NCBI GenBank assembly: GCA_963556255.1 | Contig: OY744616.1 | Coordinates: 2,118,831 to 2,182,830 of the forward strand | Reading direction: 5' to 3' | From: Allolobophora icterica | Taxonomy: Eukaryota; Annelida; Clitellata; Crassiclitellata; Lumbricidae | DNA length: 64,000 nucleotides | In this document: positions 2,786 through 61,649 of the stretch, piece by piece | How positions within the stretch are numbered: the stretch's first letter is position 1 | Layout of the letters: every line of letters begins with the position of its first letter | Translations under genes and position numbers: made by a program | The notes under the pieces: generated by a model | Told to the model about the DNA's origin: nothing | Seen by the model: only the letters and a program-made list of their open reading frames with translations | Databases searched by the model: none

Positions 2786-3641
2786 TCTATATGATGTTGA
2801 GTTTGGTGTCAATGTGTATTTATAGAAATACGCCAGAGTGTTAGGGCATACAATAAAGTCATATTAAAGGACGACCTGTTCACTGTGTATCGAATAGGCC
2901 GTGGATGAACAGAGAACTAGTTTGATGAAATAATTGGTTGAAAACTGAAATAGTCAGATTTCTCTTTTTGTAATTATAAATGAAAAACAAGAAGTAAGCA
3001 ACAAAAGACTAGTTTTTCATGCGAGGCATAATCACAGCAGAAATAAAATAGCTCAGTATACTGAAGTGCTGACTTAGACACATGCTTAATCAAACTAAAA
3101 ATGTTTTTAACGCTGAACATATAACCAACAGGTCTAAATTGTACTTATTAATCAAACAAGACAAGTCAATTTCTGCTTAACTAAAGACAATTACTTTGAA
3201 AACAAACATCAATAAGGATAAATGCATGCATAGGCCTACTGCCAGGCATTGATTAACTGAACACTTCTTCTCTGTTTCATCCACCAGATAATTTGTTTCG
3301 ACCCTCATATGATATCTTCTCAGATATTTAAGATAATTTCTTTTGGTCAGTTGATATTACGGAATTTCTTAGTTTGCAGTATCCGGTAAATACGTCATCA
3401 CATAATCATTCAGCATCCATAATATTTCCCCTAAAACGATTTTGTAACCTAAACAGAGAGCAACTGTTTTCATTTCATAGGACCTTCTGTGGTTACGATA
3501 AGATCCTGAATATGCATGGATTGTGATTTGTCTCCAACAAGACTGGTATTTTAAGGTTCCCTAAATGTACTTCTTCCATTGTGAATCTGCAGAGCCGCAT
3601 TGTTTGAGAATGTTTTTCTAGAAACCTGACGCAAATGGTTT
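2786..3641. other. Non-coding 3' flank of the ZNF-A unit
   Basis: This stretch is homologous to the region between the (ATC)n array and the zinc-finger ORF in all units (for example 19110-19910, 28040-28850, 53590-54430). ACAATAAAG near 2849 is a second conserved possible poly(A) signal for plus-strand transcripts. A TAGGCCTA micro-insertion lies at 3231-3238; the homologous site at 11732 is empty (GCATACTGCC). Unlike other units, most of the decayed finger sequence beyond the ORF is deleted here. Confidence 0.4.
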
Positions 3642-3922
3642 CTATAGAGAGTGAGTTTTTTCATGATGTTTCAGACCTGAAGAGAGTAAGATTGTTTTCT
3701 GACATACCTGCCAAAGGTATGGCTTCTCTCCGCTGTGAATCTTTGCATGACGTCTTAGACTGGAAGAGGTAGTAAAACGTTTTGGACATACCTGGCAATG
3801 GTAAGGTTCATCTCCAATATGAATTCTAGCATGCTCTGTAAGAATGTCAGATCGGGAAAAACGTTTTTTACAGGTCTGGCATTGGAAAGGTTTATCTCCG
3901 GTATGGATTCTGACATGACTTA
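3642..3922 (-). pseudogene. Disconnected last fingers of ZNF-A
   Basis: The sequence matches the last three fingers of intact ZNF-F (motifs equivalent to [18 protein letters not shown] and the final [11 protein letters not shown], with TAG at 3642-3644). It lies in a different frame from the upstream ORF. The ORF shifts frame inside the preceding finger and stops at 3923-3925, leaving these fingers untranslated. Confidence 0.65.
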
Positions 3923-5614
3923 CTAGACTGGATGAATGGGAAAAACTTTTTTTACATACCTGTACCTGGCAAAGGCTGCGGAATGGGTTCTCACGTGACT
4001 TTTCAGGTCACACTGGTATGCGAAAACTTTTGCACATTGCTGGCATTGGTATGGTTTCTCTCCAGTATGGATTCTCTGATGACTCTTGAGATAAAACCGG
4101 CACGAAAATGCTTTTGAGCATAACTGGCATTGGTATGGTTTCTCTCCAGTATGGATTGTACCATGAATTTTCAGTTGGTAAGATCTGAAAAATGCTTTTT
4201 TACAAACCAGACAAAAAAATGGTTTCTCCCCAGAGTGGCATTTTTCATGACTTCTCAGAATTGAAATGCATGAGAACGTTTTCTGACATATCTGGCAAAG
4301 GTATGGTTTCACTCCAGAGTGGCATTTTTTATGACTCCTTAGACCTGAAGTGTATGCGAACGTTTTTTGACATATCTGGCAAAGGTATGGTTTCGCTCCA
4401 GAGTGGGATTTCTCATGACTTTTTAAGCTTGCAGTGCTTGAGAATGTTTTCTGACATACCTGGCAAAGGTATGGTTTCTCTCCAGTATGAATTTTAGCAT
4501 GATCTTTTAGACTGGAAGAATATGAAAATCGTTTTTGACAAATATGACATAGATATGCTTTCTCTCCAGTATGTGTTCTCTTGTGAACCAGCAGACTACC
4601 GCTATGTGCGAATGCTTTTGGGCATAACTGGCATTGGTACGGTTTTTCTCCAGTATGTATTCTTATGTGCCTCTTTAGATAGCTTTGATACTTAGTTTTA
4701 AAGTCACATGACTGACATTGGTATGGTTTCTCTACAGTATGAATTCTGACATGATTTCGTAGACTGTAAGAAACTAAAAATCTTTTATGACATATTTGGC
4801 ATTGGAAAGGCTTTTCTCCAGTATGGAGTCTAAAATGGCACTGCAGACTATAATAATGAAAAAATGCCTGTTTACATATCTCGCACTGAAATGGTTTCTC
4901 TCCAGAATGGATTCGAAGATGACATGCTAGATGGGCATATTGAGAGAAACCTTTTTTACACATGTGGCACTGGAAAGGTTTCTCTCCTGTATGGGTTCTG
5001 ACATGAATTTTTAACGAGAAATATGTGGCAAAAAGTTTTTGGCAAACCTGACACAGAAATGTCTTCTTTCCAGGGTGATATTTTTCATGACTTCTCACAG
5101 CTGAAGCGCTTGAGAATCTCTTCTGACATAACTGGCAAAGGTATGGTTTCTCTCCAGTATGTATTCTTACGTGCCTCTTTAGATAGCTTTTATACTTAGT
5201 TTTAAAGTCGCAAGACTGGCATTGGTACGGTTTCTCTTCGGTATGAATTCTCGAATGACATTTTAGATTGGAATATTGGAGAAAACGCTTATGACATACT
5301 TGGCATTGGAAAAGTCTCTCTCCGGTATGTGCTGTCATGTGATTCTTCAGGTTTGATTGCCTTACAAACGATTTTGGGCATATCTGGCACTGGTATGGTT
5401 TCTCTCCAGTATGAATTCTCGTGTGACTTTTCAGGTGACAGGCGTACTTAAACATTTTCTTACATAACTCGCATTCGTATGTCTTGTCTTTGGAACGGAT
5501 TTTCTTCTTTTCCTTCGTATGAGTATCCAACACAAATGATTTCTGACTTAGCTGGGAACTTTGCGTCTCTTCTTGAGCGGCACTTCCAAGCGAATGAGAA
5601 ATGCTTTGCGACAT
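3923..5614 (-). CDS. ZNF-A: poly-C2H2 zinc-finger protein, C-terminally truncated
   Basis: A single ORF encodes about 18 tandem C2H2 fingers joined by [13 protein letters not shown] linkers. This family binds DNA, so the product is presumably a nuclear sequence-specific DNA-binding protein; the target is unknown. The N-terminus ([18 protein letters not shown], then a Ser/Lys-rich spacer) has no domain I recognise. I chose the MSQ start at 5614 because it is shared by the paralogs; an in-frame ATG 33 bases upstream (5647) exists only in this copy. Typical fingers are [19 protein letters not shown] and the family-specific [14 protein letters not shown] type, which occurs twice. After finger 18 the frame slips and the protein ends [19 protein letters not shown], losing the last four fingers found in ZNF-F. 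It may still be functional, since all retained fingers have complete Cys/His sets. Confidence 0.8.
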
Positions 5615-5640
5615 CGCTAATGATTGTGACGATTTCGGAG

Positions 5641-5656
5641 GCTGCATGAAATATTA
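5641..5656 (-). promoter_or_regulatory. Conserved candidate 3' splice site upstream of the zinc-finger ORF
   Basis: Read on the minus strand, TTTCATGCAG is followed by CCTCCGAAATCG and, 27 bases on, the MSQ start. All seven paralogs keep a pyrimidine-rich stretch ending in CAG here (variants TTCTTACAG, TTTCAAACAG, TTTTAAGCAG). Where the frame is kept, the 27 bases are an in-frame extension of the ORF (PPKSSQSLA). This suggests that the large exon is entered by splicing from an upstream exon that I could not locate. Confidence 0.45.
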
Positions 5657-6285: not shown

Positions 6286-7619
6286 CGCCTCGCATGTAGC
6301 TATTTATATTGCTTGATTGATTATATGGCTAAGCTATCGAATCCATCCATCTAGCGGAGCTTCAGAGTTTAAAGCGTTGGTAGGGCCTACTCGGAACTAA
6401 AATATCAAACAGAATTAATTACCTGAGCCAGAAAGGGTTCGTTGAGAAATCTTAAAACTCTTTCCACTTTAAGAAATGTAACTAAAGTTACTGAAGGGCT
6501 GCTGATTCTAGTAGTCTCCTGTTGCTTTAGAGATGACACGAAGGCAGTGTTTCAACTTTCAAATTTAATTTCCGTTGAAACGCACAACTGTTCAATTTTG
6601 ATATCGTAGATTATTAATGACGTCACTACTAAACAATTATCAGATTATGTACGTCATTGGGATATAATTATTGGATTATCCGATTACTATATTATTAATT
6701 ATATTTCAATGATTCGTAAAAACACAGGAATATAATAACTTACCAAAGAGCACAATAGCAACGAAAGTAAAGTTATAGATTGTAGCTCTCTCGCTTTTGT
6801 CAAAATGGCGTTACGTGAAAAGGGCCGTCCATAAATGACGTGACGTATCTAAGGGGAGGGTTTTTGAGAAATGTGAAGCCAAATCACGTCTACATAATTA
6901 AATTTAACAATTACATTAACTTTGAATAATTTTCATCATTTTTTCGATATATTTCGCCTCGCATGTATACTATTTATATTGCTTGATTGATTATATGGCT
7001 AAGCTATCGAATCCATCCATCTAGCGGAGCTTCAGAGTTTAAAGCGTTGGTAGGGCCTACTCGCAACTAAAATATCAAACAGAATTAATTACCTGAGCCA
7101 GAAAGGGTTCGTTGAGAAATCTTAAAACTCTTTCCACTTTAAGAAATGTTACTAAAGTTACTGAAGGGCTGCTGATTCTAGTAGTCTCCTGTTGCTTTAG
7201 AGATGACACGAAGGCAGTGTTTCAACTTTCAAATTTAATTTCCGTTGAAACGCACAACTGTTCAATTTTGATATCGTAGATTATTAATGACGTCACTACT
7301 AAACAATTATCAGATTATGTACGTCATTGGGATATAATTATTGGATTATCCGATTACTATATTATTAATTATATTTCAATGATTCGTAAAAATACAGGAA
7401 TATAATAACTTACCAAAGAGCACAATAGCAACGAAAGTAAAGTTATAGATTGTAGCTCTCTCGCTTTTGTCAAAATGGCGTTACGTGAAAAGGGCCGTCC
7501 ATAAATGACGTGACGTATCTAAGGGGAGGGTTTTTGAGAAATGTGAAGCCAAATCACGTCTACATAATTAAATTTAACAATTACATTAACTTTGAATAAT
7601 TTTCATCATTTTTTCGATT
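6281..7619. repeat. Recent local tandem duplication, two copies of about 669 bp
   Basis: Copy 1 (6281-6949) and copy 2 (6950-7619) are nearly identical. The few differences I see include TAGCTATT versus TATACTATT, CGGAACT versus CGCAACT, GTAACTA versus GTTACTA and AACACAGG versus AATACAGG. Other units hold a single, more diverged copy (for example 40614-41670 with insertions). Each copy carries TGACGTCA and a GGGCCGTCCATAAATGACG stretch. No gene is seen. Confidence 0.93.
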
Positions 7620-8150
7620 TGATTATTTAAATAAACGGCAACTGATAGGTTGTATCGCGAACGAAGAAAATTGAGAGAATGTAGACTGGATAGACGAAGA
7701 AAAGCTTGATCTGAATAGAATATCCATTCAACATGATGAAGAGATCCATGCTCTGGCTGTTCATTTAATTATACAGCACTTTTCTTCGCCATGGGTGAAT
7801 GAAGAATTATAAATTTTGCAAATTTCTGTAGCCCAATCATTGTTATTAAACATTTTAATTCTAATGACTCTACCAGAGTGTTTCATTCTGTGAAATGAAT
7901 ATGTCATTGTTATAATTCTACTCTCTTCATTTTGCTCCGTTCTACTATAAAGTTTCAAGTATTTTTTAATAGTTAGGCCTATCACTTTTCACTTAGAAAT
8001 ATTCATCGTCTAACAAATAATACAGATGTTCAGAATATTAAAATAATATTCTGTATAGGGCCTATCTGTAGTAATTGGTTAGACGACGAATATTTTCAAG
8101 TTCATTTTATGAATATATTTATATATTTTTTTAAAATTTAAATAGAATGT
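7620..8150. other. Type-alpha spacer, no gene seen
   Basis: AT-rich spacer shared with 25290-25780 and 41670-42036. TAGGCCTA fills a TA at 7974-7981; the same position is also filled at 25654 but empty at 42009-42010 (AGTTATCAC). A related TAGGGCCTA lies near 8051. Confidence 0.5.
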
Positions 8151-9379: not shown

Positions 9380-9800
9380 CACCTTCTATTTAATACGCTA
9401 CATAGCTTTCTCCTTGCAACACCAGAGTGCAGTGCCACATCAAATACTTATTACAATGACAATAGATGTGATTTGAAACAGGCTATATCATGATTTTTGA
9501 ATGAGTTTTACTTTTTGTGACGATGTGTGAAATCAGAATTAGAATTAAATTGGCATCTTCGACCTATAAGTCCTCACAATGTGCACTCCTACCTACCTTC
9601 AACCACTACTCTCAACTTAGGCCTACATCCCGACACACAGTCTGCGATCTTCTGTTATGGGGTCTTTTGGTTGAACCTAGTTGTAGCACTGCCTGAAACT
9701 ACTCGCCCATGTCAATGCTGTATTGTGGCTCAACCAAAAGACACAGCTGATGGTCGCAAACTGCATGATGGGTGTATTGTGTATTGAGGTATTGATGGAT
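9380..9800 (+). repeat. Type-alpha specific conserved segment upstream of the exon-2-only copies
   Basis: A block shared by three units (also about 25790-26210 and 43230-43650) and absent from the units that have exon 1. All three copies stay open in one frame (CYGVFWLNLVVALPETTRP near 9655-9705, ending HDGC), with some substitutions. I recognise no protein and cannot tell a decayed exon from non-coding sequence. TAGGCCTA at 9618-9625 is absent from the copy at 43477. Confidence 0.35.
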
Positions 9801-10633: not shown

Positions 10634-12099
10634 TCGGTTACATCTCACAGGTTATATTAGTTTCAAATAAGAAGTGTGGTTAAATCTAAGTTTAATGAAC
10701 GATTCGAGTAATAGAATTCGATTATCTGCCTCGGTTGGAGTATCATATTAGTCCATGGTATATTTCAATGAAAGGAACGTGTTCTTTGCATTAGACGTTT
10801 TCACTCACTTTCTATGGTAATTTGTAAACACTAACGCTCTAAGTAAAACCATTGTAACAAAAAAGGCTTTATATCTAATGTAGGCCTACGGTCTGAATTG
10901 GTGCATTATAATAAATTATATTACATTTATGTGACATGAACTTGTTCTTTGCCTTTTACAAGCAGCACATCCAAGTCATTTCATCGCTCTATGGTCTTCG
11001 ATTTCGATAGGAGAAAATTATTATGGGGAGATACCATATCAGTAATATCCAATTCCGGGTTTACAGTGTGTATATAATTATACACATACTTTGCGGGCCT
11101 AGGGGGTCGACGTTAAGGCGAAAATCTACCAGAGGACGTAACCTGAGTAGTGCGCCATAATATGACGTGTGAGACAATTCTAAAATATTTAAAGGAGTGT
11201 AATCAAGTGTAATTTGCAGAAAGAAAGAGAGACATACAGAGGCGTCAACCCCCCCCCCAAGTCATTGGAGCAACTTCCCTTTCCCCTTCTGTTTGCCCCC
11301 TCCTTCTTCCTCCACCCTCCCCCAAACGGTAGCACACACACACTGACAGATCTTCCCACCCAATTTCTTGGAATGAGCATTTGCAGAAAGAGAAGAGACA
11401 TATATATGTATATATATATATATATATGTATATATAAATATATATAGTCAGATTTCTTTATTTGTAATTGTAAATGAGTGAAAACGAGAAGAAAGCAACA
11501 AAAGACGACGGAAACTGCCAGTTTTTTCATGCGTAGTATATCATCACTGCAAAATAAAATAGGTCAATATACTGAAGTGCTGACTTAAATACATGCCTAG
11601 TCAAACTGAAAATGTTTCATTAACGCTGAACATATTACCAACAAGTCTTAAATTGTGCTTAATCAAACAAGAAAAGTCAATTTTTGCTTAACTGAAGCCA
11701 CTTACTTTGAAAACATAAACTCATTCATGCATACTGCCAGGCATTGATAAACTCGACACTTCTGCTCTGTTTCATTCACCAGATAATTTGTTTCGACCCT
11801 CATATTATGTGATTATATATTCTCAGATATTTAAGATAATTTCTTTTGGTCAGTTGATATTGCGGGATTTCTTAGTTTGCAGTATCTGGCAAATACGGCA
11901 TCACATAATCATTCAGCATCCCCCTTAAATGATTTTGCAACCTAAACGGAGAGCAACTGTTTTCATTTCATACGACCTTCTGTGGTTATGAAATGATCCT
12001 GAAGATGCATGGATTGTGATTTGTGATTGGTTTCTAACAAGACTGCAATTTTAATGTTCCTTAAATGTACTTCTTCCATTGTGAATCTGCAGAACAGCA
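10634..12099. other. Non-coding flank with simple-sequence islands
   Basis: The usual 3' flank up to about 10960 is followed by sequence with no paralog (about 10970-11390) that replaces the (ATC)n array. It includes a poly-C run near 11250, a pyrimidine-rich stretch to 11370 and a (TA)n/(TG) patch at about 11399-11446. From 11450 the shared flank resumes. TAGGCCTA fills the ATGTACGG site at 10881-10888. No gene is seen. Confidence 0.5.
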
Positions 12100-12985: not shown

Positions 12986-14608
12986 CTAGATTGGATGAAT
13001 GGGAAAACGTTTCTTACATAGGCCTACTTGGCATTGTAAAGGCCTCTCGCCGGAATGAATTCTCGTGTGACTTTGAAGTTCACACTGGTATGTGAATGCT
13101 TTTGCACATTGCTGGCATTGGTATGGTTTCTCGCCAGTTTGGATTCTTTGATGAGTTTTGAGATGAGATTGGCATGAGAATGCTTTTGAGCATAACTCGC
13201 ATTGGTATGGTTTCTCTCCAGTATGAAGTGCAACATGAATCTTCAGTTGAGAAGATCTGAAAAACGCTTTGTTACAAGCATGACACAGAAATGGTTTCTC
13301 TCCTGTATGGATTCGTCCATGTGTTTTCAGAATTGAAGCACTTGCGAATGTTTTCTTACATACCTGGCAAAGGTACGGTTTCTCTCCAGAGTGGGCTTTT
13401 TCATGATGTCTCAGACCCGAATTGCACGAGAACGTTTTCTGACATATCTGGCAAAGGTATGGTTTCTCTCCAGTATGAATTCTGAAATGACATCTTAGAC
13501 GGGAAGTATTTACAAACCTTTTTTGACATATCTGGCATTGGTAAGGCTTTTCTCCAGTATGGAGTCTAAAATGGCACCGCAGACTATTATTTTGACAAAA
13601 TACCTGTTTACATATCTCGCACTGAAATGGTTTCTCTCCAGAATGGGTTCGTACATGACTTGCTAGATAGGAATACTGGGAGAAATCTTTTTTACAAATC
13701 TGGCACTGGAAAGGTTTCTCTCCTGTATGGGTTCTTACATGAATTTTTAATGTGAAAGATGTGGCAAATAGTTTTTGGCAAACCTGACACAGAAATGTCT
13801 TCTTTCCAGGGTGATATTTTTCATGACTTCTCATAGCTGAAGCGCTTGAGAATGTCTTCTGACATAACTGGCAAAGGTATGGTTTCTCCCCAGTATGAAT
13901 TCTTAAGTGCCTGTTTAGATAGCATTTATACTTAGTTTTAAAGTCACATGACTGGCATTGGTTCGGTTTCTCTTCCGTATGAATTCTCTCATGGCGTTTT
14001 AGATCGGAGTATTTGGGAAACCGCTTTTGACATGCTTGGCATTGGAAAAGTCTCTCTAATGTATGTGTTCTCATGTGAATCTTGAGGTTTTGTTGGTTTG
14101 CAAACGATTTTCGACATATCTGGCATTGGTATGGTTTCTCCCCAGTATGAATTCTTATGTGCCTCTTTAGATAGCTTTCATACTTAGTTTTAAAGTCGCA
14201 TGACTGGCATTGGTATGGTTTCTCTGTGGTATGAATTCTCGAATGACGCGCTAGGTCGTAAGATTTGGGAAAACGCTTGTGACATACTTGGCATTGGAAA
14301 GGCCTCTCTTTTTTATGTATTCTCATGTGAATCTTGAGGTTTGGTTGGTTTGCAAACGATTTTGGACATATCTGGCATTGGTATGGTTTCTCTCCAGTAT
14401 GAATTCTCGTGTGACTTTTCAGATGATATGCGTAACCAAACATTTTCTTACATAACTCGCATTCGTATGTCTTGTCTTTGGAACGGATTTTCTTTTTTTC
14501 CTTCGTATGAGTATCCGACAGAAATGATTTCTGACTTAGCTGAGAACTTTGAGTCTCGTCTTGAGCATCTCTTCCAAGCGAATGCTTGGAAGAATTGCTT
14601 TGCGACAT
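12986..14608 (-). CDS. ZNF-B: poly-C2H2 zinc-finger protein, 17 fingers, C-terminally truncated
   Basis: Single-ORF protein of 540 residues, starting MSQSNSSKHSLGRDAQDETQ and followed by 17 C2H2 fingers with HTGEKP linkers; predicted nuclear DNA-binding protein. Fingers 2-4 and 5-7 are a direct duplication with a 252-base period, absent from other copies. Finger 16 has lost its last ligand (RIQ for RIH). The C-terminus is doubly altered. A TAGGCCTA micro-insertion at 13019-13026 adds Gly-Leu between the two Cys of the next finger (QVGLC). A missing T a few codons later shifts the frame, so the protein ends KKRFPIHPI. ZNF-A ends at the same place (FPIHPV). The start is the MSQ Met shared by the family, 27 bases after the conserved CAG acceptor-like site. 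Confidence 0.8.
   Translation of the reverse strand: MSQSNSSKHSLGRDAQDETQSSQLSQKSFLSDTHTKEKKKIRSKDKTYECELCKKMFGYAYHLKSHTRIHTGEKPYQCQICPKSFANQPNLKIHMRIHKKERPFQCQVCHKRFPKSYDLARHSRIHTTEKPYQCQSCDFKTKYESYLKRHIRIHTGEKPYQCQICRKSFANQQNLKIHMRTHTLERLFQCQACQKRFPKYSDLKRHERIHTEEKPNQCQSCDFKTKYKCYLNRHLRIHTGEKPYLCQLCQKTFSSASAMRSHEKYHPGKKTFLCQVCQKLFATSFTLKIHVRTHTGEKPFQCQICKKDFSQYSYLASHVRTHSGEKPFQCEICKQVFCQNNSLRCHFRLHTGEKPYQCQICQKRFVNTSRLRCHFRIHTGEKPYLCQICQKTFSCNSGLRHHEKAHSGEKPYLCQVCKKTFASASILKTHGRIHTGEKPFLCHACNKAFFRSSQLKIHVALHTGEKPYQCELCSKAFSCQSHLKTHQRIQTGEKPYQCQQCAKAFTYQCELQSHTRIHSGERPLQCQVGLCKKRFPIHPI
13019..13026. repeat. TAGGCCTA micro-insertion inside a zinc-finger codon series
   Basis: ZNF-F and ZNF-E read CTTACATACCTGG or CTGACATACCTGG here; ZNF-B reads CTTACATAGGCCTACTTGG. 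The TA has become TAGGCCTA, adding 6 bases in frame and changing the Cys-X2-Cys spacing of the finger to Cys-X4-Cys. Confidence 0.9.
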
Positions 14609-16080
14609 CGCTAATGCTTGTGACGATTTCGGAGGCTGTTTGAAATATTAACGTAATAGCATACCATATAGCACCTCGTTCTTTTGCATTGTTTCATTAT
14701 GTAATTTGTACTTAGACCTATGCTAATCTTTAAGGGCAAATTTACATAGCCATTCTTCTAGTAAACTTATTCTTCATTGTGACGTCAGGAGGAGCACTTG
14801 ACCTGACAATGCAAGATGCAAAATCGTTTGCAAATTGAATGGTCTCATCTGCTGGTAATAATATTTTAGAGACGTAGAAAGGAGACGACACTCGGCTAGA
14901 TCTATATGGTTGACTCCGAAATACATAGGTACATGTATTTATCCTATGAATTTATCCTATGAAGGGCACAACCGGTCAGGCAGTTACGTATCACCATAAA
15001 GATCATAGGCACCGACCTTTGCTTTTGTCTCTGGGTGCATGGATCCTCCCTCACTTCCCCTTAGAAATCGCCTATCCCTTCTCCTCCTCTCCCTACCTCT
15101 TTCTCCTCCCCTTAGGTAGTCGAGTTATTAGCGGATTTTCGGAGGAAGAAAATTGTTTTCTAGTCAACAGTTACGAGTTTAGAAAAGGTATTGGAAATCG
15201 GAGACGTTCTGACGTTCCAGTAGGCCTACATGTAATTGTTTATTATTTTAAATAATAAAAAAATTAATAATTTATTTATGTAAGGGCTGTGACTGTGAGA
15301 TCATGCAATGTTGGGTATTTGTGTTGTAGTTGTATTTCTCAAGTTTTAAGATTATTTAGGTGTAAAAAATTTGAATTTAAGGTCCGAATTCTTTTGGCTG
15401 CGACACACCCACTGAACTTTCTCTCTGAGTGCATTCGCACCCAAGGCTCCCAAAGAGCCGGCGCCTATGAAAAGGATCTTAAACCTAACGAGTTTTCGGA
15501 TAGAGGACCAATATAGATCACCTCGCATAGCTATTTATATTGATTGATTGACTTATTGATTATATTGCTAAGCTTTCGAATCCTTCCATCGAGCTGAGCT
15601 TCACAGCTTAGAGCTTTGGCACTCGCAACTAAAATATCAAACAGAATTACCTGAGCCAGGAAGGGTTCCTTGAATAATCTTAAAACTCTTTCCACTTCAG
15701 AAATGTTACTAAAGTTACTGAATGACTACTTAATCTAGTAGTTTTTCTATTGCTTGAGAGATGACACGAAGGAAGTGTTTCAAATTTAATTTCCGTTACA
15801 ACGCACAACTGTTCAATTTTGACTCCGTCGTGTATTTATGACGTTACTACTAAACAATTATATTTAGATTAAGTGCGTCATTGGAATATATTAGATAAAC
15901 CGATTACTGTTTTATTAATTTCATTTCAATAATTCGTAAAAACACAGGAATATATAACTTACCAAAGAGAACAATAGCAACAAAAGTGAAGTTATAGATG
16001 GTAGCTCTCTCGTTTTTTCTCAAAATGGCGTTACATGAAAAGGGGCCGTCAATAAAATGACGTCACGCAGTTGCGCTGTT
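14609..16080. other. ZNF-B upstream region and type-beta spacer
   Basis: Contains the conserved block upstream of the ZNF ORF (to about 15000), then a unique C-rich stretch near 15010-15200. TAGGCCTA is at 15221-15228. Spacer shared with 31190-31640, 47950-48180 and 57330-57540 follows. No supported gene; short frames here look random. Confidence 0.4.
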
Positions 16081-17314: not shown

Positions 17315-17623
17315 ATGGAGAACGATTTGACGAGACGCGAGAAGCAACGAAAGAGACGGGTCCAACGTCGTATCCGATTGCGTCAAAGCGGACTAGTCTC
17401 CGATCCACAAGATAGTCGTCACGCTTCGACTGTTCATCTGTACGTTCACAACTATGCACATTTCATGCCACATTTAACTTATAGGCCTACAATATATTAT
17501 TAATATTGTCATTACTAGGTTTCTTATTATTCATATTTTTGTTATTATTTCTCCGAATTAAGCATAATAATTTGTCAGAAAGCAAACAAATAATAAATAT
17601 CATCATCATCATCATCGTCGTCG

Positions 17624-22360: not shown

Positions 22361-23074
22361 CGCTATTGATTGTGACGATTTCGGAGGCTGTATGAAACAT
22401 TAACGTTATAGCATACTATATATTATCAGCTAGTTCTTTTAAATTGTTTCATTATGTAATTTGTACTTTGGCCTATGGTAATCTTTAAAGGAACGTTAAC
22501 ATAGCCAATCTTCTAGTAGGCCTAAACTTAGTCTTGCATTCTGAGGTCTTTTCATCTTGCATTCTCGACCTGACAATGCAAGATGCAAAATCGTTTACAA
22601 ATGGAATAGTCTTCAACTGCTGTTAATATAGAGGCGTAGAAAGGAGACGACACTCGTGTCAAATGCTTCCTGGAAGACTATTCCATGGGGGTCGACGTCG
22701 ACAAAGTTTTTCAGCGTGGAAATACGGGATGGGAAGCAACCATTTCACCATGCGTTGCAGTGCCATGATATCTGCGGCCAGATACGGTTGACTGAAATAC
22801 ATAGCTATCTATCATAATATGAAGGGCACAACCTGTCAGGCAGCTGTTTATCAACATGTATATTGTATAAGGATTATAAACCTAACGAGTCTTCGGATAG
22901 GGAACTAATAGAGATCGCCTCGAAAGTAGCTATTTATATGGCTGAGCTTTCGAATCCACCGATCTAGCGGAGCTTCAGTTTTTAAAGCGTTGGCAGTCGC
23001 AATTAAAATATCAGACAGAAAGGGTTGCTTGAGAAATCTTAAAATTCTTTCCACTTTAGAAATGTCACTAAAGT
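22361..23074. other. Conserved upstream region of ZNF-C
   Basis: Shared upstream block with the acceptor-like TTTCATACAG just before the ORF. TAGGCCTA at 22517-22524 (empty at 14762-14763). AGGAGACGA and the CACAACC-GTCAGGCAG landmarks are present. No separate gene is seen. Confidence 0.4.
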
Positions 23075-27830: not shown

Positions 27831-28849
<1,019 letters not shown>

Positions 28850-43123: not shown

Positions 43124-44002
43124 GTCTAAGCAATAATACAGATGTTCAGCATATTATAATAATATTCTGAACATCTTTAGTAACTGGTTAGACGACGAAT
43201 ATTTTGAAGGTTATTTTATGCTAATTTCAGCTTTTCAACACCTCTTATTTAATAGGCTACATGACTTTCTCCTTGCAACACCAGAGTGCAGCGTCACATC
43301 AAAAACTTATTACAATGACAATAGATGTGATTTGAAACAGGTTTTATTATAATTTTTGAAGGAGTGTTACTTTTTGTGACGACATGTGAATTCAGAATTA
43401 GAATTAAATTGGCATCTTTGACCTATAAGCCCTCACAATGTGCACTCCTACCTACCTTCAACCACTACTCTATCCTTACATCCCGATACGCAGTCTGCGA
43501 TCTTCTGTTATGGGGTCTTTTGGTTGAACCTAGTTGTAGCACTGCCTGAAACTACTCGCCCATTTCAGTGCTGTATTGTGGCTCAATCAAAAGACACAGC
43601 TGATGGTCGTAAACTGCATGATGGGTGTAATGAGTATTGATGTATTGATGGATATATTGATGGATGTAAGAGGATACTAGTGGTTGAAGGTTAATCACAA
43701 TCATAGTTTTCATCATTATTATGCTATAGGGGCCTACATCGGGAATGCGGAGTAAATATCATGCTATACAATCATGTACATCGAGAATGCGGAGTAAATG
43801 TTGCGAGAAACATGGGTCAGGTCCTAAATAAATAAGCACTCGAGAATAAGCTGGTGCCTTGGGCTTAGCTCTCGAGAGGCGCTTTAGACATTTGGAGTTT
43901 ACGATTACGATTACGAAGAAGCATTAAATATGACCTTTTCGTAGCTCCTCTTAATTATTAATGTTGTTTTAATTGCCATAAATATGCTTTATGTTATTTT
44001 AG
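43124..44002 (+). repeat. Type-alpha conserved segment
   Basis: Third copy of the segment seen at 9380 and 25790, with the empty micro-insertion sites CACTACTCT (43466-43467) and CTTACATCC (43477-43478). It ends in the acceptor TTATTTTAG. A duplicated stretch with CATCGAGAATGCGGAGTAAAT occurs near 43740-43800. Confidence 0.4.
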
Positions 44003-47744: not shown

Positions 47745-48584
47745 CGCTAATGATTGTGACGATTTCCGAGGCTGTAAGAAACATTACCGTCATAGCATAC
47801 AATATCAAATCGTTCTTCTCCATTGTTTAATTATGTAATTTGCACTTAGTCCTATGTTAATCTTTAAGGGTATGTTTACATAGCCATTCTTCTAGTAAAC
47901 TTAGTCTTGCATTGTGAGGTCAGAAGAAGCTCTCAAATCAAATCAAATAACTCACAATGCAAGATTAAGTGCGTCATTGGAATATATTAGATTAACCGAT
48001 TACTGTATTATTAATTACATTTCAATAATTCGTAAAAACACAGGAATATATAACTTACCAAAGAGAAAAATAGCAACAAATTGAAGTTATAGATCGTAGC
48101 TCTCTCGTTTTTCTCAAAATGGCGTTACGTGAAAGGGCCGTCCATAAAGGACGTCACGCAGTTTCGCTGTTTCCAAATCATCCTCTGCAAGCAAACATTT
48201 AGCGCTTTTGTAGGTTTTCACAAAGATCTGTAGAAAATTAGAATCATACAGGTAATGGTTTCGCAAAAATAGGCTGTAGCGTACCAAAACCCAAATGCTA
48301 AGCAACAGTTAGCAATACTTTACGAATCCATCCATCTAGCGGAGCTTCAGATTTTAAAGCGTTGGTACTCGCAACTAAAAGAACAAAACAGAATTACTTT
48401 AGCCAGAAATGGTTCCTTGAGAAATCTTAAAACTCTTTCCACTTAAGAAATGTTCTTGAATTTCCGTTATAAAGCGCAACTGTTCAATTTTGACTCCGTC
48501 GCTTATTTATGACGTTACTACTAGACAATAATAGGCCTATTATTACTTAGATTAGGCTAAGTGCGTCATTGGAATATATTAGAT
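47745..48584. other. ZNF-F upstream region and type-beta spacer
   Basis: Nearly collinear with 57095-57930 (unit G). TAGGCCTA at 48532-48539 (empty at 57900-57901). A shorter TAGGCTA near 48553 also lacks a counterpart in G. No gene is seen. Confidence 0.5.
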
Positions 48585-48936
48585 CAGGGGTCTCCAAAGT
48601 ACGGCCCGCGGGCCACATCCGGCTCGCCAAGGTCTCTATTCTGGCCCGCATAACTCTCCTTGAAAAACAAAATAAATTGGGAAAATTGATAATTTTAACG
48701 CCGCTGTAGGCCTACTCTGACATGCATCTGGACCTGTCATCTGTCCTAGAGCCTGTTGTTTCCACTGTTAACATTTAACTGTTGAAATTCTGCACTGCAT
48801 CAGACCTCAGGAATAAATAGTCTGTTAACAGTACTGTTAGGGCCTATTCATTCGCGGTTTTTTTCGGAGTTTTGGCCCGTGGAGCTTTAGAAAGTCAGCA
48901 ATGTGGCCCCCCGCTGGAAAACCTTGGAGACCCCTG
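48585..48936. mobile_element. hAT-like MITE with exact 8-bp duplication and a known empty site
   Basis: Starts CAGGGGTCTCCAAAGTACGG and ends AACCTTGGAGACCCCTG. TATTAGAT occurs at 48577-48584 and 48937-48944. Unit G reads GGAATATATTAGATTAACCG (about 57927-57946), the empty site. Inner arms share GCGGGCCACAT and GTGGCCCCCCGC. Length 352 bp, no ORF. It carries its own TAGGCCTA at 48707-48714. Confidence 0.95.
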
Positions 48937-49088: not shown

Positions 49089-49772
49089 GGTCTGGGGGCG
49101 TTTCGTCTTGGGACGATTCATCACGGACGATTCGTCCTGGGACGATTCATCACGAGGACGTTTCGTCTCGGGTCGAACTGTTCGTCAACGAGGGTTGCGT
49201 AAATGGACCGTCTTTAAAAGAGGTCTCTGTAAAGAAGTACCGTAATTTGATTGCGAGAGTTAGGCGTGCGGTTCAGGGTTATAACAGAACAGATGTTCTT
49301 ACAATCATATCTTCGTGCAATAGCCCATCTCTCTCACAACTAGTAGAATTTTTAAGTACTGGAACCTGTATTGATGATGACACTATCGTATTATTCGGCT
49401 TTAGTCTGTTTTCTCGTTTTAGTATGTAGCCTACCTATGTCTTTTTAGACAATCGATCTTTGTTAGATTTGTTGAGTTTTAACATTTAGTGTGTTTTCTC
49501 GTTTTAGTATGTAGGCCTACCTAGAACTAAACTGTTAAGATTTGTTACCATGACAGTCTATCGTTTTAGTGTTTTTAGTCTGGAATGACAATGACAAGCG
49601 AGCCTTTTAGTCTGTAGTTGACAATAAATGTTTTAGTCTTTTTAGACAATCGATCTTTTGTTAGATTTGTTGAGTTTTAACATTGGACAATCGATCTCTT
49701 CGTCCTCGAGACGAATCGTCCGGAGACGAAACGTCCGTGACGAATCGTCCGGAGACGAAACGTCCGCATACC
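49089..49772. mobile_element. Foldback element with GGACGTTTCGTC/GGACGATTCGTC arms
   Basis: Both arms consist of alternating GGACGTTTCGTC and GGACGATTCGTC units (about 49095-49175 and 49695-49765). Ends are GGTCTGGGGG and CGCATACC. AAAAGAAC flanks both sides (49081-49088 and 49773-49780). Unit G has the near-empty site GTAAGAAGAACATTT at 58084. The 500-bp interior includes a plus-strand frame (about 49190-49428) with protein-like composition (IARVRRAVQGYNRTDVLTII), possibly a captured fragment, then a duplicated TTTTAGACAATCGATC stretch with a TAGGCCTA at 49512-49519. Confidence 0.88.
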
Positions 49773-51427: not shown

Positions 51428-52079
51428 ATGGAGAACAATTTGACGAGACGGGAGAAGCAACGAAAGAGACGGGTCCAACGCCGCATACGGTCTCGTCAAA
51501 CCCGACAACCCTCCAACCAAACAGATCGTCTTCAGTCTTCGACTTCTCACATGTACGTTCACAACTATAATTCACATTCATACTATATAATATTATTTAC
51601 TGAGTGGAGGAGGCTCGAACCCGTACCGTACTCTCCGTGTTACGAGAAACATGGGTCAGGTCCTATATAAATAAGGGCTCGTGAATAAGCTGGTGCCCTG
51701 GGCTTAGCTTTCGTGTGGGGCTTTGGAAAATTGGAGTTTACGATTAGGCCTACGATGACGAAGAAGCATTAAATATGACCTTTGCGTAGCTTCTCCTGTA
51801 TTATTAATGTTGTCTTAGTGGGGTCCATAGAGTAGTGGTAACATCGCTGGCGTGAAAGAGGTAGCGGGATCGCTTCCCGCAATCCTCCCAAATTTAGGTC
51901 CACTCAGCCTTTCATTCGCGAGATGGCGCGTTGTTAAAATGAGATGTAGGACGTGATGGGCGCCTTGCATGGATGCCGTGTACAGTTAAAATTCGACTCC
52001 TGTAATAATTTGTGATCATCCGTTCACACTGATTTGTAACCATACTGCGTTATTATCAGTTTGAAGATATTAAACGAAG

Positions 52080-55021: not shown

Positions 55022-57094
55022 CTATAGAGAGTGAGTTTTTTCATGATGTTTCAGACCTGCAGAGAGTGAGAATGTTTTCTGACATACCTGGCAAAGGTAT
55101 GGTCTCTCTCCGCTGTGAATCTTTGCATGACTTCTTAAACTGGAAGAGGCAGTAAAACGTTTTGGACAAACCTGGCAATGGTAAGGCTTATCTCCAGTAT
55201 GAATTCTAGCATGCTCTGTTAGAACGCCAGATCGGGAAAAACGTTTTTTGCATATTTGGCATTGGAAAGGTTTATCTTCGGAATGGATTCTAACATGAAC
55301 TGCTAGAGTGGATGACTGGGAAAAACTTTTCTTACATGCCTGACATTGGAAAGGCCTCTCTCCAGAATGGATTCTCATGTGAATTTTAAGTTTAAACTGG
55401 CATATGAATGCTTTTATACACTGCTGGCATTGGTACGGTTTCTCTCCAGTGTGGATTCTCCGATGAATCATGAGATAAGTTCTGCATGGGAATGGTTTCG
55501 AGCAAAAATTGCACTTGTATGGTTTCTCTCCAGTGTGGATTCTCTGATGAATCTTGAGATAAAATTGGCATGAGAATTCTTTAGGGCATAATTTGCATTT
55601 GTATGGTTTCTCTCCAGTATGGATTCTAACATGAATTTGCAGTTGAGAAGATGTGAAAAATGCTTTGTTACAAGCATGACACAGAAATGGTTTCTCTCCT
55701 GTATGGAGTCTTCCGTGTGTTTTCAGAGCTGAAGTGCTCCTGAATGTTTTCTGGCATACCTGGCAAAGGTATGGTTTCTCTCCAGAGTGGGATTTTTCAT
55801 GACTTTTTAAGCCTGCATTGCATGAGAACGCTTTCTGACATACCTGGCAAAGGTATGGTTTCTCTCCAGTATGAATTTTAGCATGATCTCTTAGACTGGA
55901 AGGATATGAAAATCGTTTCTGACAAACATTACATGGAAATGATTTCTCTCCGGTATGCGTGCTCTTGTGAGCCCGCAGACTACCGCTTTGTGCGAATGCT
56001 TTTTGGCATAAATGGCATTGGTATGGTTTTTCTCCAGTATGAATTCTGACATGAATTTGTAGATCGGAAGAAACTCTAAATCTTTTCAGACATATTTGGC
56101 ATTGGTAAGGTTTTTCTCCAGTATGAATTCTGATATGAGTTCGTAGAGTGTAAGAAACTGTAAATCTTTGCTGACATATTTGGCATTGGTAAGGCTTTTT
56201 TCCAGTATGAATTGCGACATGAGTTCGTTGACTGGAAGAAACTTTAAATCTTTTCTGACATATTTCACATTGGTAAGGCTTTTCTCCAGTATGGAGTCTA
56301 AGATGGAACTGCAGACTATTATAATGACAAAATACCTGTTTACATATCTCGCACTGAAATGGTTTCTCTCCAGAATGGATTCGAAAATGACTTGCTAGAT
56401 TGGAATACCGGGAGAAACCTTTTTTGCACATCTGGCACTGGAAAGGTTTCTCTCCTGTATGATTTCTTAAATGAATTTTTAACGCGAAAGGTGTGGCAAA
56501 TAGTTTTTGGCAAACATGACACAGAACTGTCTTCTTTCCAGGGTGACACTTTTCATGACATCTCATAGCTGAAGCGCTTGAGAAGGTCTTCTGACATATC
56601 TGGCAAAGGTATGGTTTCTCTCCTGTATGTATTCTTATGTGACTTGTTAGATAGCTTTTATACTTGGTTTTAAAGTCACATGACTGGCATTGGTATGGTT
56701 TCTCTTCGGTATGAATTCTCGCATGACGTCTAAGATGGGAAGGTTTAGGAAAATGCTTGTGACATACTTTGCATTGGAAAGGCCTCTCTTTTGTATGTGT
56801 TCTCATGTGATTCTTGAGGTTTGGTTGGTTTGCAAACGATTTTGGACATATCTGGCATTGGTATGGTTTCTCTCCAGTATGAATTCTCGTGTGACTTTTC
56901 AGGTGACTAGCTTTCTTAAACATTTTCTTACATAACTCGTATTCGTATATCTTGTCTTTGGAACGGATTTTCGTGTCTTCCTTCGTCTGAGTATCCGACA
57001 CAGATGATTTCTGACTTAGCTGGGAACTGTGTGTATCTTCTTGAGCGGCGCTTCCAATTGAATAGGCCTACTTGGAAGAAATGCTTTGCGACAT
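55022..57094 (-). pseudogene. ZNF-G: 23-finger zinc-finger gene with a micro-insertion stop near its start
   Basis: The longest member. The family start ATGTCGCAAAGC is at 57094, but after eight codons (MSQSISSK) a TAG appears, created by TAGGCCTA at 57063-57070. Beyond it the same frame is open to the family end at 55022 and encodes about 23 C2H2 fingers, three more than ZNF-F, including an expanded CQKRFKVSS / CQQRFTVSY / CLKRFRVSS set. The first finger has lost its first Cys (YEYELC), while the others look complete. No ATG occurs between the TAG and finger 1, so normal initiation would give nothing. Initiation within finger 1, or entry from an upstream exon by different splicing, would be needed. 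The many intact fingers show the inactivation is recent or that the body is still used. Confidence 0.8.
57063..57070. repeat. TAGGCCTA micro-insertion creating a nonsense codon in ZNF-G
   Basis: On the coding strand ZNF-B reads TCTTCCAAGCATTCGCTTGG; here the equivalent is TCTTCCAAG, then TAGGCCTA, then TTCAATTGG. The net gain is 6 bases, so the frame is kept, but the new codon after AAG is TAG. Confidence 0.9.
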
Positions 57095-58061
57095 CGCTAA
57101 TGATTGTGACGATTTCGGAGGCTGTAAGAAACATTAACGTAATAGTATACCATAATTATAATTATCAGGTCGTTCTTCTCCATTGTTTCATTATGTAATT
57201 TGTACTTAGTCCTATGTTGATCTTTAAGGGCATGTTTACATAGCCATTCTTCTAGTAAACTTAGTCTTGCATTGTGAGGTCATAAGAAGCACTCAAATCA
57301 AATCAAATAACTCACAATGCAAGATTAAGTGCGTCATTGGAATATATTAGATTAAACGATTACTGTATTACTAATTACATTTCAACAATTCGTAAACAAA
57401 CACAGGAAACTAAGTTACCAAAGAGACCAATAGCAAAAAATTGAAGTTATAGATCGTAGCTCTCTCGTTTTTCTCAAAATGGCGTTACGTGAAAGGGCCG
57501 TCCATAAATTACGTCACGCAGTTGCGCTGTTTCAAAATCATCCTCTGCAAACAACAATCAATAAATTTAACGCCTTTGTCGGTTTTCACAAAGATCTGTT
57601 AAAAAATTAGAATCATACAGGTAATGGTTTCGCAAAAATAGGCTGTAGCGTACCAAAACCCAAATGCTAAGCAACAGTTAGCAATACTTAACGAATCCAT
57701 CCATCTAGCGGAGCTTCAGATTTTAAAGTGTTGGCACTCGCAACTAAAAGAACAAAACAGAATTACCTGAGCAGAAAGGGTTCTTTGAGAAACCTTAAAA
57801 CTCTTTCCACTTAAGAAATGTTACTGAATTTCCGTTATAAAGCGCAACTGTTCAATTTTGACTCCGTCGCTTATTTATGACGTTACTACTAAACAATAAT
57901 ATTATTATTTAGATTAAGTGCGTCATTGGAATATATTAGATTAACCGATTACTGTAGGCCCCTATCATTAATTACATTTCCACTGAACTAAATTGTAACA
58001 AAAACTATTAGAGGGTGGTACACATGATGGTCCAGGGTGCGATTTCTTGGAGATTTGAAAG
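57095..58061. other. ZNF-G upstream region and type-beta spacer
   Basis: Near-copy of 47745-49030 without the hAT insert. Contains a longer micro-insertion form, GTAGGCCCCTATC near 57955, where unit F reads GTATTATT. Confidence 0.45.
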
Positions 58062-58163: not shown

Positions 58164-58525
58164 AATGGATTTTGCTATGGCCTATAATTATGGCCATGTA
58201 ATATCTGGTCATTGTTAAGCGTCTCTTAAGGACTTCACAAGGACACCTAACATTGCAACTAAGATCAAACAGTCTGGCACACTAGTAGGCCTACGTGCTG
58301 TGCGGTATCGTAAAACATGATTCTAAACTATGAAGTTACGAATTTATCTGTGCTGTCATTTGATGGCATAAACAATAATTGTTTATTTTTCGTCGCAATC
58401 TCAGTAGTATCTTGGTAAGTCCCAATTCTTCCCATTTGCCTCATTTTCTAGTCGTCTAAGTGTCGTCCTCTGTAAAAATTTAAATCTTGGGCTAGCACGG
58501 TCCGTACACGGTTTTTTTTAATGTC

Positions 58526-58786
58526 GTGGTAGGCCTACCCATTCAAACGGGAAGCGGTGGCAAAGGATCTCACCAGATCAATTCAGTTAAAAATGAGCAG
58601 GGTCGAGACCATGCGATTGCTGTAGAAAACATGTACATCTACAATAAGATTACTTTGTATGACTCAACTAATGCAGCTGGCTACAACAGGTCCTATGATG
58701 GGAAGCGAACTGTTCCTCGGTGGATTTGTCACTCAGGAGCACATAAAGTCACAGGCAAAGTGATGTGCCGACTAATCCGGAAATGA
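58526..58786 (+). CDS. Unidentified small ORF, possibly an old exon
   Basis: An 86-codon frame with mixed, protein-like composition (GRDHAIAVENMYIYNKITLY; KRTVPRWICHSGAHKV; ends VMCRLIRK). The homologous stretch in unit F keeps the same frame for about half its length and then has stops. I recognise no family. It overlaps the TAGGCCTA at 58530-58537. Confidence 0.25.
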   Translation: MVGLPIQTGSGGKGSHQINSVKNEQGRDHAIAVENMYIYNKITLYDSTNAAGYNRSYDGKRTVPRWICHSGAHKVTGKVMCRLIRK

Positions 58787-59896: not shown

Positions 59897-59925
59897 TGAC
59901 GTCACTTTTTATTTTGGAAACCAAT
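59897..59925 (+). promoter_or_regulatory. Promoter-like cluster before exon 1 of copy 4
   Basis: TGACGTCA at 59897-59904 and CCAAT at 59921-59925; the second CCAAT is changed to CCACTCA. Confidence 0.55.
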
Positions 59926-60102
59926 GACAACGGCCACTCAGAATGCGTCATTTTCATGCGCATAGGATTCTGGTATGATCGTCTCTCTCCGTTTAAGTGA
60001 ACTGGTCGTCAAGATATTAGCCTCGCAGCGGCTTAGAGTTTATGCGTGATAGTAGTTAAAATTTAATCGATGAATAATAATCACGACCTCAATCGACCAC
60101 TT

Positions 60103-61181
60103 ATGGAGAACGATCTGACGAGACGGGAGAAGCAACGAAAGAGACGGGTCCTACGCCGCATACGGTCTCGTCAAACCCGACTACCCTCCAACCCACCAGA
60201 TCGTCTTCAGTCTTCGACTTCTCACATGTACGTTCACAACTATGCACATATCCATACTATATTTACTGAGTGGACGAGGCTCGAACCTGTACTCTCCGTG
60301 TTACAAGAAACATGGGTCAGGTCCTATATAAATAAGCGCTCGTGAATAAGCTGGTGCCCTGGGCTTAGCTTTCGAGTGGGACTTTGGAAAATTGGAGTTT
60401 ACTGATGACGAAGAAGCATTAAATATGACCTTTGCGTAGCTTCTCCTAGATTATTAATGTTGTCTTAGTGGGTCCATAGAGTAGTGGTAGCATCACTGGC
60501 GTGAAGAGCAAGAGGTAGCGTGATCGCTTCCAGCAACCCTCTCAAATTGAGTTCCACTCAGCCTTTCATTCGCGAGATGGCGCGTTGTTAAAAATGAGAT
60601 GTAGGACGTGATGGGCGCCTTGCATGGCTGCCGTGTACAATTAAAATTCGACTCCTGTAATAACTTGTGATCATCCGTTCATACTAATTTGTAATGATAC
60701 TGCGTTATTGTCAGTTTGAAAATATTATACGAAGATTATTATTATTATTAATTTATTATTAGCTGCAATACATATGCCTTTATGTTATTTTAGTCGTGAC
60801 CAGGCTGCACCGAGCAACCGATCGGACAATATTGAGGATGATGTTGTGAGCCTCAATGCACCAGGCGCAAGGCATTCGACGTTCGAGAGCAATGTCTCCA
60901 TCTCGCGGTCTGTGGAAGGAAATACGAGGATCGAAGTACGAGGAGGAATCGCGATGATCGATAACGTATGCTACGGGGGTCAGGTCATCGTCAACGGGAG
61001 GCGTCTACCCGAATCCACCCTGACAACCGGTGACTTTGGGGTGAACCTGAATCACGTTCCGTCGACTTTTCCCCAGAACCAGGGCACCGGTAACACATCG
61101 ATCATAGTACGAGGAGGGATCGGATTTATCGGAAACGTATGGGGTCAGGTCATCGTTAACGGGAACGATGAATCAGGATGA
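60103..61181 (+). CDS. GGI-repeat gene, complete copy 4 (two exons)
   Basis: Exons 60103-60227 and 60794-61181 give 513 nt (170 residues), phase 2. Exon 1: MENDLTRREKQRKRRVLRRI then RSRQTRLPSNPPDRLQSSTS. Exon 2 begins RDQAAPSNRSDNIEDDVVSL. The motifs are GNTRIEVRGGIAMIDNVCYG plus GQVIVNG, and SIIVRGGIGFIGNVWGQVIV. The C-terminus is NGNDESG-TGA, as in copy 3. All splice signals match the other complete copies. The intron contains the SINE at 60470. The predicted product is small, basic at the N-terminus and acidic around EDDVV, with two Gly-rich beta-like motifs; its role is unknown. Confidence 0.6.
60470..60740 (+). mobile_element. tRNA-like SINE with short (ATT)n tail
   Basis: Same insertion as at 51819 (GGGTCCATAGAGTAGTGG, GAGATGGCGCGTTGTTAAAA) with only a few ATT repeats. 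Confidence 0.65.
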
Positions 61182-61202
61182 CCGGGTCAATGACTTTCTA
61201 AA

Positions 61203-61649
61203 GCTCTGTCTCTGTCTCTGTCTCTGTCTCTGTATCTTTGTCTGTCTCTATCTATCTATCCATCTGTCTATCTATCTCTGTTATATGTCACAGGTAATAT
61301 TAATTTCAAATGAGAAATGTGGTTAAATCTAAGTAAACGAACGATTCGAGTAATGGAATTCGATTATCTGCGTCGGTTGGAGTATCATATTAGCCTAGTC
61401 CATCGTAAATTTCTATGAAATGAATGTGTTCTTTGCATTCGACGTTTATTACTCACGTTCTATGCTAATTTTAAAACACTAACGCTGTAAGTAAAACCAT
61501 AGTAGCTGAAGTATCAAAACAGGCTTTAGCTAATGTAGGCCTACGGTCTGAATTGGGATATTATGATAAATTATAATAAATTTCTGTGACATGAACTTGT
61601 CTTTTGCCTCTTATAGCGAGGATCATGATGATGACGATGATCCCTATCG
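61203..61649. other. Post-stop pyrimidine tract and conserved flank
   Basis: TCTG tract to about 61275. TAGGCCTA fills the ATGTACGG site at 61536-61543. The variant TAGCCTA near 61396 stands where other units read ATTAGTCC. Confidence 0.55.

Follow-up and report, generated by a model that had tools for sequence, protein, structure and literature searches.

Origin of the Word by Insertion at TA

The palindromic 8-mer TAGGCCTA is present in exactly 27 exact copies in a 64,000-base stretch of the genome of the earthworm Allolobophora icterica (contig C19:2118831-2182830, hereafter the window), a C2H2 zinc-finger array in which six of the eight open reading frames (ORFs) scanned encode zinc-finger proteins. 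Comparison of paralogs reveals that the word arises there mainly by insertion at a TA dinucleotide with duplication of the TA, and many of the hundreds of thousands of copies in the genome have the look of very small insertions made recently at TA. What is inserted varies as a series, TA-GG-C(n)-TA, found in either orientation and counted genome-wide for n = 1-4, and this series is new here. The insertion state of TAGGCCTA copies was read in the window and in a few fetched loci (labeled L0xx, with contigs labeled Cx), and the genome-wide figures are word counts.

An earlier reading of the window from its letters alone (the sequence-only reading) had reported at least 27 copies where base composition would give about one, and both figures hold, as the 27 lie at all of the coordinates it listed against Markov expectations of 0.79, 0.46, 0.49, and 0.73 at orders 0, 1, 2, and 3. 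Expectations at orders 4-6 rise to 2.8-20.6 because those models are trained on TAGGCCTA itself. By frequency the word ranks third among the palindromic 8-mers of the window, behind ATATATAT and TATATATA. Words were also counted over 1,117.69 Mb in 328 contigs (356 scaffolds in the published assembly, PMC11530748), in both orientations and with the reversed word as the control for each. This gave 273,201 copies of TAGGCCTA against 7,459 of its control (37-fold), with the density in the window at ~1.7 times the genomic density; 35 copies lie in sixteen 10-kb stretches from 16 chromosomes, which together with the window form a 224-kb sample used below. The enrichment thus belongs to the genome as a whole; confinement to the array, which by the sequence-only reading would have counted against insertion, is ruled out. 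These counts include duplicated DNA and so overstate the number of independent events, an example being a long tandem array at C1:1255681-1298086 in which TAGGCTA recurs eight times at exact 6,057-bp steps.

To read the insertion state, each word site was scored as filled or empty against its window paralogs, with 70 drawn TANNNNTA words as control. A testable paralog was available for 23 of the 27 TAGGCCTA sites, with at least one empty copy at 19, only empty copies at 10, and a filled copy at 6. In contrast, among the 50 control words with a paralog, 9 had any empty copy, none had only empty copies, and 41 had a filled copy (Fisher p = 2e-7 for any empty copy and 2e-6 for only empty copies). 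Alignment shows an empty copy at two of the four TAGGCCTA sites where the score test gave none. A sequence-blind list of gaps between window paralogs holds 295 clean indels, some of which are not independent of one another. Of these, 41 are of 6 bp; TAGGCC at TA accounts for 12 of the 41, and the 5-, 6-, 7-, and 8-bp forms of the insert class together account for 18 of the 295. Window paralogs mostly differ in length at the TA, not by conversion of near-matches, and the net change is a duplicated TA and a gain of 6 bp. As an excision scar would have it, TA stands on both sides of filled sites and singly at empty ones. The insertion with TA duplication that had been proposed is borne out by these pairs and by the Tc1-like family described below, and not every copy is an insertion, 39492 being a substitution.

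Score tests identify insertions at TA at 3231..3238 (4/7 paralogs empty, 3 ambiguous), 9618..9625 (2/2 empty), 22517..22524 (3/4 empty, 1 ambiguous), 23839..23846 (4/5 empty, 1 ambiguous), 26025..26032 (2/2 empty), and 48532..48539 (4/4 empty), and an insertion at 28671..28678 (6/7 empty, 1 ambiguous). Alignment and score test agree on the insertions at 58286..58293, which lies at G-TA-C (1/1 empty, 49974), and at 58530..58537 (1/1 empty, 50216). At the TA insertion at 31891..31898 all four alignments are empty, two of them being opposite-strand matches of nearly one place. Polarity is clear for the insertion at TA at 26735..26742, where alignment finds the other units 6/6 empty. The filled/empty pairs put forward earlier are real, except that the gap between 51745 and its proposed partner 9985 is longer than the insert; for the insertion at TA at 51745..51752, alignment gives clean empties at 43905 and 34876. 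The words at 10881..10888 and 61536..61543 occupy the same G-TA-C, the former with five other units empty and one filled by alignment and both with four empty and one filled by score test. Alignment likewise finds 7974..7981 and 25654..25661 filled together, with an empty copy at 42017. The word at 13019..13026 lies near the end of zinc-finger ORF 12986-14608 (- strand), where the insertion is in-frame and adds GL inside a C-X2-C pair, giving C-X4-C.

The sole paralog of 17482..17489, at 34316, carries TAGGACTA in alignment, a shared and decayed state. The word at 23887..23894 has its first TA in common with the TAGGGCCTA at 23880-23888. Alignment is ambiguous at 30987..30994 and mostly so at 40643..40650 (score test: 1 empty, 2 ambiguous); most paralogs of 39530..39537 are ~6 bp shorter with an ambiguous junction, and most paralogs of 57063..57070 have TG at the site. 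No window paralog exists for 15221..15228, 48707..48714, or 49512..49519. The word at 39492..39499, with same-length relatives in 6/6 paralogs, is the 1 of 27 clearly born by substitution.

Direction of the Change

The clearest polarity comes from outside the window, from a Tc1-like element of ~625 bp of which eight copies on seven chromosomes were compared. Seven of these are 98.4-99.4% identical to the eighth, L030, the only one with TAGGCC cleanly inserted at G|TA|C; L030 otherwise shows only 2 base differences from the eight-copy majority. With all seven other copies of this family empty, and with the window alignments, the filled state is derived relative to the empty. The eight copies give 1 insertion per 46 substitutions, and the ten best window pairs (8,395 columns) give 5 insertions per 758 substitutions.

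The reverse polarity, in which the filled state is ancestral and empty sites arose by deletion between the two TAs, is accordingly disfavored and appears very improbable. Two TAs six bases apart could favor slippage deletion, and two sites are each filled in two paralogs (10881/61536 and 7974/25654). Deletion is at odds with a family of 98-99% identity that is filled in one copy of eight and empty in seven, and with the other units, 6/6 empty both at 26735 and at the related insertion 61391; nor can it produce the 37-fold genome-wide excess. The empty state is thus ancestral wherever it could be read, which answers the concern of the sequence-only reading that alignments might show the opposite.

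The Insert as a Series with One Fixed Side

Beyond exact TAGGCCTA, the window holds 11 relatives with longer G or C runs, such as TAGGGCCTA and TAGGCCCCTA, and the five-base form TAGCCTA/TAGGCTA is likewise present. Genome-wide, the n = 1 form TAGGCTA was counted 214,153 times against 83,884 for its control (excess 130,269); this control contains CpG and may run low, and the order-2 expectation in the 224-kb sample gives a similar ratio. The excess is 265,742 at n = 2 (TAGGCCTA), 63,210 at n = 3 (TAGGGCCTA, 65,378 against 2,168), and 13,359 at n = 4 (TAGGCCCCTA, 13,835 against 476). The 4-bp palindrome that had been taken as the insert is thus the n = 2 form, and too narrow a description of a GG-C(n) insert in either orientation.

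Two further words reveal how the sides of the insert are related. TAGGGCCCTA shows no excess (729 against 1,508), where independent sides would give ~3,760 extra, and TAGGGCTA shows little (17,155 against 13,991, ~3,200 extra), where independent sides would give ~15,500 extra. One side is therefore nearly always exactly two bases, and the other is variable, from one base upward with a roughly fourfold drop for each base added beyond two. These counts ruled out independent G-tailing of both broken ends, which had first been favored on the 224-kb sample. Observed and order-2 expected numbers in that sample are 62/1.9 for TAGGCCTA, 19/0.75 for the TAGGCCCTA class, 6/0.15 for the TAGGCCCCTA class, 2/0.03 for the TAGGCCCCCTA class, 43/17 for the TAGGCTA class, and 0/0.07 for TAGGGCCCTA. 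TAGCTA (40 against 38) is in too small a sample there to decide on side independence. Extra bases between TAGG and CCTA are G or C in 22/23 cases at spacing 1 and in 6/8 at spacing 2.

In the window, clean 5-bp insertions of the n = 1 form are aligned at 48553..48559 (TAGGCTA, + strand; 2/2 empty) and 61391..61397 (TAGCCTA, - strand; other units 6/6 empty). Among the n = 3 forms, TAGGGCCTA at 8056..8064 (-) has paralogs that read CA (3/3 empty by score test), and TAGGCCCTA at 23566..23574 (+) is 8/8 empty by score with a loose alignment. The TAGGGCCTA at 23880..23888 (-) adjoins 23887, and those at 32021..32029 (-) and 48838..48846 (-), the TAGGCCCTA at 2381..2389 (+), and the n = 5 form TAGGGGGCCTA at 32008..32018 (-) have no paralog. 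The n = 4 form TAGGCCCCTA at 57955..57964 (+) has a paralog that reads TC (score test, 1/1 empty), and TAGGGGCCTA at 43727..43736 (-), also n = 4, is not a clean insertion because its aligned paralogs are of the same length. A short inverted repeat at L023:7158-7184 is formed by two opposed n = 4 words, TAGGCCCCTA and TAGGGGCCTA.

A 670-bp tandem duplication at 6278-7618, 99.3% identical, carries a TAGGGCCTA insertion in both copies (6381..6389 and 7051..7059, both - strand; score test, 1 filled and 6 empty for each), and this common n = 3 form is as inheritance predicts. The pair bears on the idea that the words are somatic scars, left where germline elements bounded by TA are removed in a programmed way. 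The sequenced tissue was posterior body, and k-mer completeness is 99.98% (PMC11530748). A somatic source for the sequenced tissue, the lack of intact elements in ~0.3 Mb examined, and the small decay halo around the word would suit this idea, whereas the sharing of a less common form by tandem duplicates is what an inherited state would give, and with so high a completeness, junctions of mixed state could hardly exist at sites numbering in the hundreds of thousands. We therefore consider somatic elimination improbable.

Target Preference, Distribution, and Age

Among 180 flanks, the base before the TA is G in 80 (2.3-fold enriched), with C at 0.38-fold and T at 0.63-fold, and the only further bias is a weak preference for A at -2 and -3. 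The preference is oriented: of the 65,378 sites with n = 3, 30,965 (47.4%) have a flanking G on the fixed side, whereas 18,500 (28.3%) have one on the variable side. Because TAGG and CCTA resemble the ends of telomeric repeats, we also considered sequence added by telomerase or by telomere fusion (TTAGGG/CCCTAA) at breaks, an origin that we can hardly credit given that T is depleted and G enriched before the TA, that TAGGGCCCTA has no excess, and that neither the register nor the length of TTAGGG is found.

Copies cluster, with 14 neighbors within 120 bp against 6.5 expected (p = 0.0025) and 3 within 15 bp against 0.9 (p = 0.07), where the null was drawn from random TA sites inside each stretch. 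Of 38 window copies, 1 falls within the nine ORFs treated as zinc-finger genes, six of which had been scanned; TA content would predict ~4.9 (p = 0.04). Words one substitution away from TAGGCCTA, of which 12 are distinct, total 66 in 224 kb against 55 expected. So few decayed relatives mean that the process is recent or ongoing or that old copies are lost; judged from these sequences, most copies look young.

The same figures bear on whether TAGGCCTA is a functional palindrome maintained by selection or biased repair, in the manner of HIP1, the highly iterated palindrome of cyanobacteria. As with HIP1, one exact palindromic 8-mer lies far above expectation genome-wide, and the decay halo is small. 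Unlike HIP1, the word has come about in the window largely through insertion at TA: the paralogs show a change of length there and not conversion of a near-match, the n = 1, 3, and 4 variants are abundant, and copies are scarce in the zinc-finger ORFs. Gain mainly by point mutation is also not what was found, with 1 copy of 27 born by substitution and near-matches at 66 against 55. A maintained palindrome is thus an unlikely explanation.

A Possible Origin in Transposon Excision

What is directly seen is the net change, the preferred target, an insert with one side almost constant and the other variable, and, in the clear cases, a derived and recent state. We give an even chance to the proposal that the majority of copies are scars left by end joining after a cut-and-paste DNA transposon with GG...CC termini was excised. 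Such a transposon would insert at TA, preferably G-TA-C, and duplicate the TA, with termini that begin GG and end CC. Tc1-type excision leaves two-base 3' overhangs on the flanks. By the same token excision here would cut two bases inside each end, so that each flank would keep a two-base GG 3' overhang. End joining would then retain one GG overhang unchanged, which would become the fixed side, and a slippage-prone gap-filling polymerase would copy the other, placing C opposite GG; one overhang would be retained and the other copied because GG and GG cannot pair. Faithful copying would give n = 2 and slippage n = 1 or 3 and more, and the scar would pass through the germ line. Copying of one of two retained GG overhangs would account for the one-side-fixed pattern and predicts the missing TAGGGCCCTA and TAGGGCTA. 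Further points in favor of the proposal are the TA duplication and 6-bp gain between paralogs, the polarity of the Tc1-like family, the near-restriction of extra bases to G or C, the preference for G before TA, the clustering of copies within 120 bp, and the short footprints that Tc1/mariner elements leave.

Several observations, beginning with the scars themselves, weigh against this proposal. One-overhang scars (TAGGTA/TACCTA) show no excess in 224 kb (86 against 86 expected), whereas published footprints are heterogeneous; with the source element not found either, the case for excision is weakened. No consistent third base retained from an element is present between TAGG and CCTA, one TAGGGCCCCTA in the 224 kb breaks the one-side-fixed rule, and the asymmetry of the flanking G (47% against 28%) is not predicted by scar formation. 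The sequence-only reading had also suggested the footprint of a GG...CC transposon, which is plausible, and had called for a search for TA-flanked elements with GG or GGCC termini; none was found in the ~0.3 Mb examined, where by our estimate a family of ~10,000 copies could be missed. Because only ~0.3 Mb was covered, this absence is weak evidence.

The individual searches were as follows. Among window paralogs there is no large filled/empty insertion with TA duplication. TAGG...CCTA pairs no more than 4 kb apart number 5,779, the best 25 all lying in L017, where they belong to another, internally repetitive element. With L017 set aside, 289 kb yield 6,369 such pairs, of which 8 are perfect and lie in L027/L028 and the rest score at most 16/22, as shuffled pairs do. 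The 8 perfect pairs stem from an inverted mitochondrial-like stretch, at C8:61145195-61147845, where a pair of COX1-like sequences with an in-frame TGA lies head-to-head and probably represents mitochondrial DNA copied into the nucleus in inverted form. The 51 alignment borders at TA|GG delimit no GG...CC element at TA, and the sole recurrent border belongs to a family starting CATAGGCGTA. Its members, in L021, L024, and L034, are hAT-like and ~145 bp long; an 8-bp target duplication can be made out in L021 and in L024. Inverted repeats flanked by TA in the 224-kb sample (60 of 345 matches listed) were not used as evidence of absence.

Transposase domains were examined by scoring 150 of 1,803 DDE_3 candidates and inspecting 16 loci for termini. 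Terminal inverted repeats (TIRs) beginning CAGT at TA were found in 12 of the 16; L029 has GTGTAGTG, L035 and L040 gave no TIR, and L043 is a compound inverted repeat. None of the 16 has GG...CC termini at TA, and CAGT begins 12 of the 13 recognizable TIRs at TA. As a Tc1 control, TACATGTA, the two-overhang scar that CAGT families should leave, exceeds expectation by no more than 1.9-fold. Among the 150 scored candidates, at least 21 DDE_3 loci share the same partial score (38.0 bits), 11 of them inside open frames of 911 amino acids (aa), and the loci lie on many chromosomes (e.g. C4:62588392, C5:55912199, and C20:11325455); this family is very young and apparently intact. There is also a DDE_3 family of 351 aa. 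A DDE_3 element on C274 has TIRs unlike those of the other DDE_3 loci.

The DDE_Tnp_4 domain identified a second family, with at least 13 loci at the same top score among the 150 scored of 264 candidates; at least 10 of these loci have an open frame of 438 aa. The loci include C19:42527017, C20:3378640, and C13:41889699, and one copy examined contains HTH_Tnp_4. This family is young and belongs to the PIF/Harbinger-ISL2EU (PHIS) group. We regard it as a candidate for the source element because one lineage of that superfamily duplicates TA (PMC12730594). Against this, the 2.7 kb to the left and to the right of the one copy examined yielded no inverted repeat.

A possible alternative that dispenses with a mobile element is micro-insertion in one step, in which an enzyme makes a cut at (G)TA staggered by two bases and GG and C(n) are added by a polymerase during joining; the enzyme is possibly a domesticated or abortive transposase. 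That a standing process of this kind has written several hundred thousand micro-insertions of GG-C(n) at (G)TA, at ~0.7-2% of the substitution count, is a suggestion that we make tentatively. It would agree with the lack of a source element in the ~0.3 Mb, with an insert almost purely of G and then C, with the one fixed and one variable side and the oriented flank preference, and with single-overhang scars at background. Against it, an enzyme of an unfamiliar kind would be needed that gives GG on one side nearly always, and TA duplication at a palindromic target is typical of transposases. We know of no comparable process.

Relation to Known Systems

Footprints of Tc1/mariner elements are short, 2-4 bp in general and 0-3 and 0-4 bp in two studies (PMC7913693, PMC9976928). 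They resemble the excision scars proposed here in the duplication of TA, the small net insertion at TA, the palindromic remnant of inverted termini, and the role of end joining. They differ in being variable at 0-4 bp (PMC7913693, PMC9976928), whereas the worm forms, in their hundreds of thousands, all follow one strict series. The Tc1-like families of this genome are, moreover, mostly CAGT-ended (12/13 TIRs at TA), so that scar letters other than GGCC would be expected from them, and the ~0.3 Mb searched yielded no source element.

The PHIS group offers a likeness in its lineage with TA duplication and in the young DDE_Tnp_4 family of the worm. GG...CC termini are known for PHIS elements and are a possibility for the worm family. 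TA target duplication in a PHIS lineage is documented, for example in fungal PHISTA (PMC12730594). IS3EU, with ends TAYGG..CCRTA, shares TA, GG, and CC but duplicates 6 bp and has the extra Y/R base (PMC12730594), whereas the worm change duplicates TA only.

In the open-licence PMC literature, searched by title and the start of the abstract, no description of the motif or process was apparent among the matches listed, with subscription journals and preprints outside this scope. Footprints of TA-inserting transposons are known, and that literature gave no instance of one strict series repeated hundreds of thousands of times. An enrichment in zebrafish, considered since the word occurs in fish sequences, has no support (12 papers with zebrafish and TAGGCCTA against 27 with zebrafish and the reversed word); one zebrafish promoter primer contains GTAGGCCTAC.

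If the words are excision scars, the genome records very many excisions of one type of transposon and provides a natural data set on how the germ line of an animal joins ends whose two-base overhangs do not pair. Otherwise, insertion of a specific sequence is under way in an animal genome. Either way they form a strong class of small insertions, relevant to indel models and to comparative genomics of A. icterica, and they help to order young paralogs and alleles in time.

Other Elements in the Window and Genome

Three larger elements in the window were noted. The segment 48577-48936 is an insertion absent from its paralog, with an 8-bp target duplication and hAT-like CAGGGGTC termini. The segment 49081-49772 is likewise absent from its paralog, has an 8-bp target duplication, and begins GG and ends CC. 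At 40067-40498 lies an element with a CGTAG duplication, a TIR around CTTGTCGGTTAATTCACC, and an internal 32-bp minisatellite. The mitochondrial COX1, translated with genetic code 13, shares 96% identity with that of Eisenia nordenskioldi. Elsewhere, C257 carries a 721-aa frame with a COX1 domain and no internal stop, perhaps bacterial, and two matching pairs of DDE_3 matches between C10 and C9:66.9-67.0 Mb suggest that C10 is the second haplotype there.

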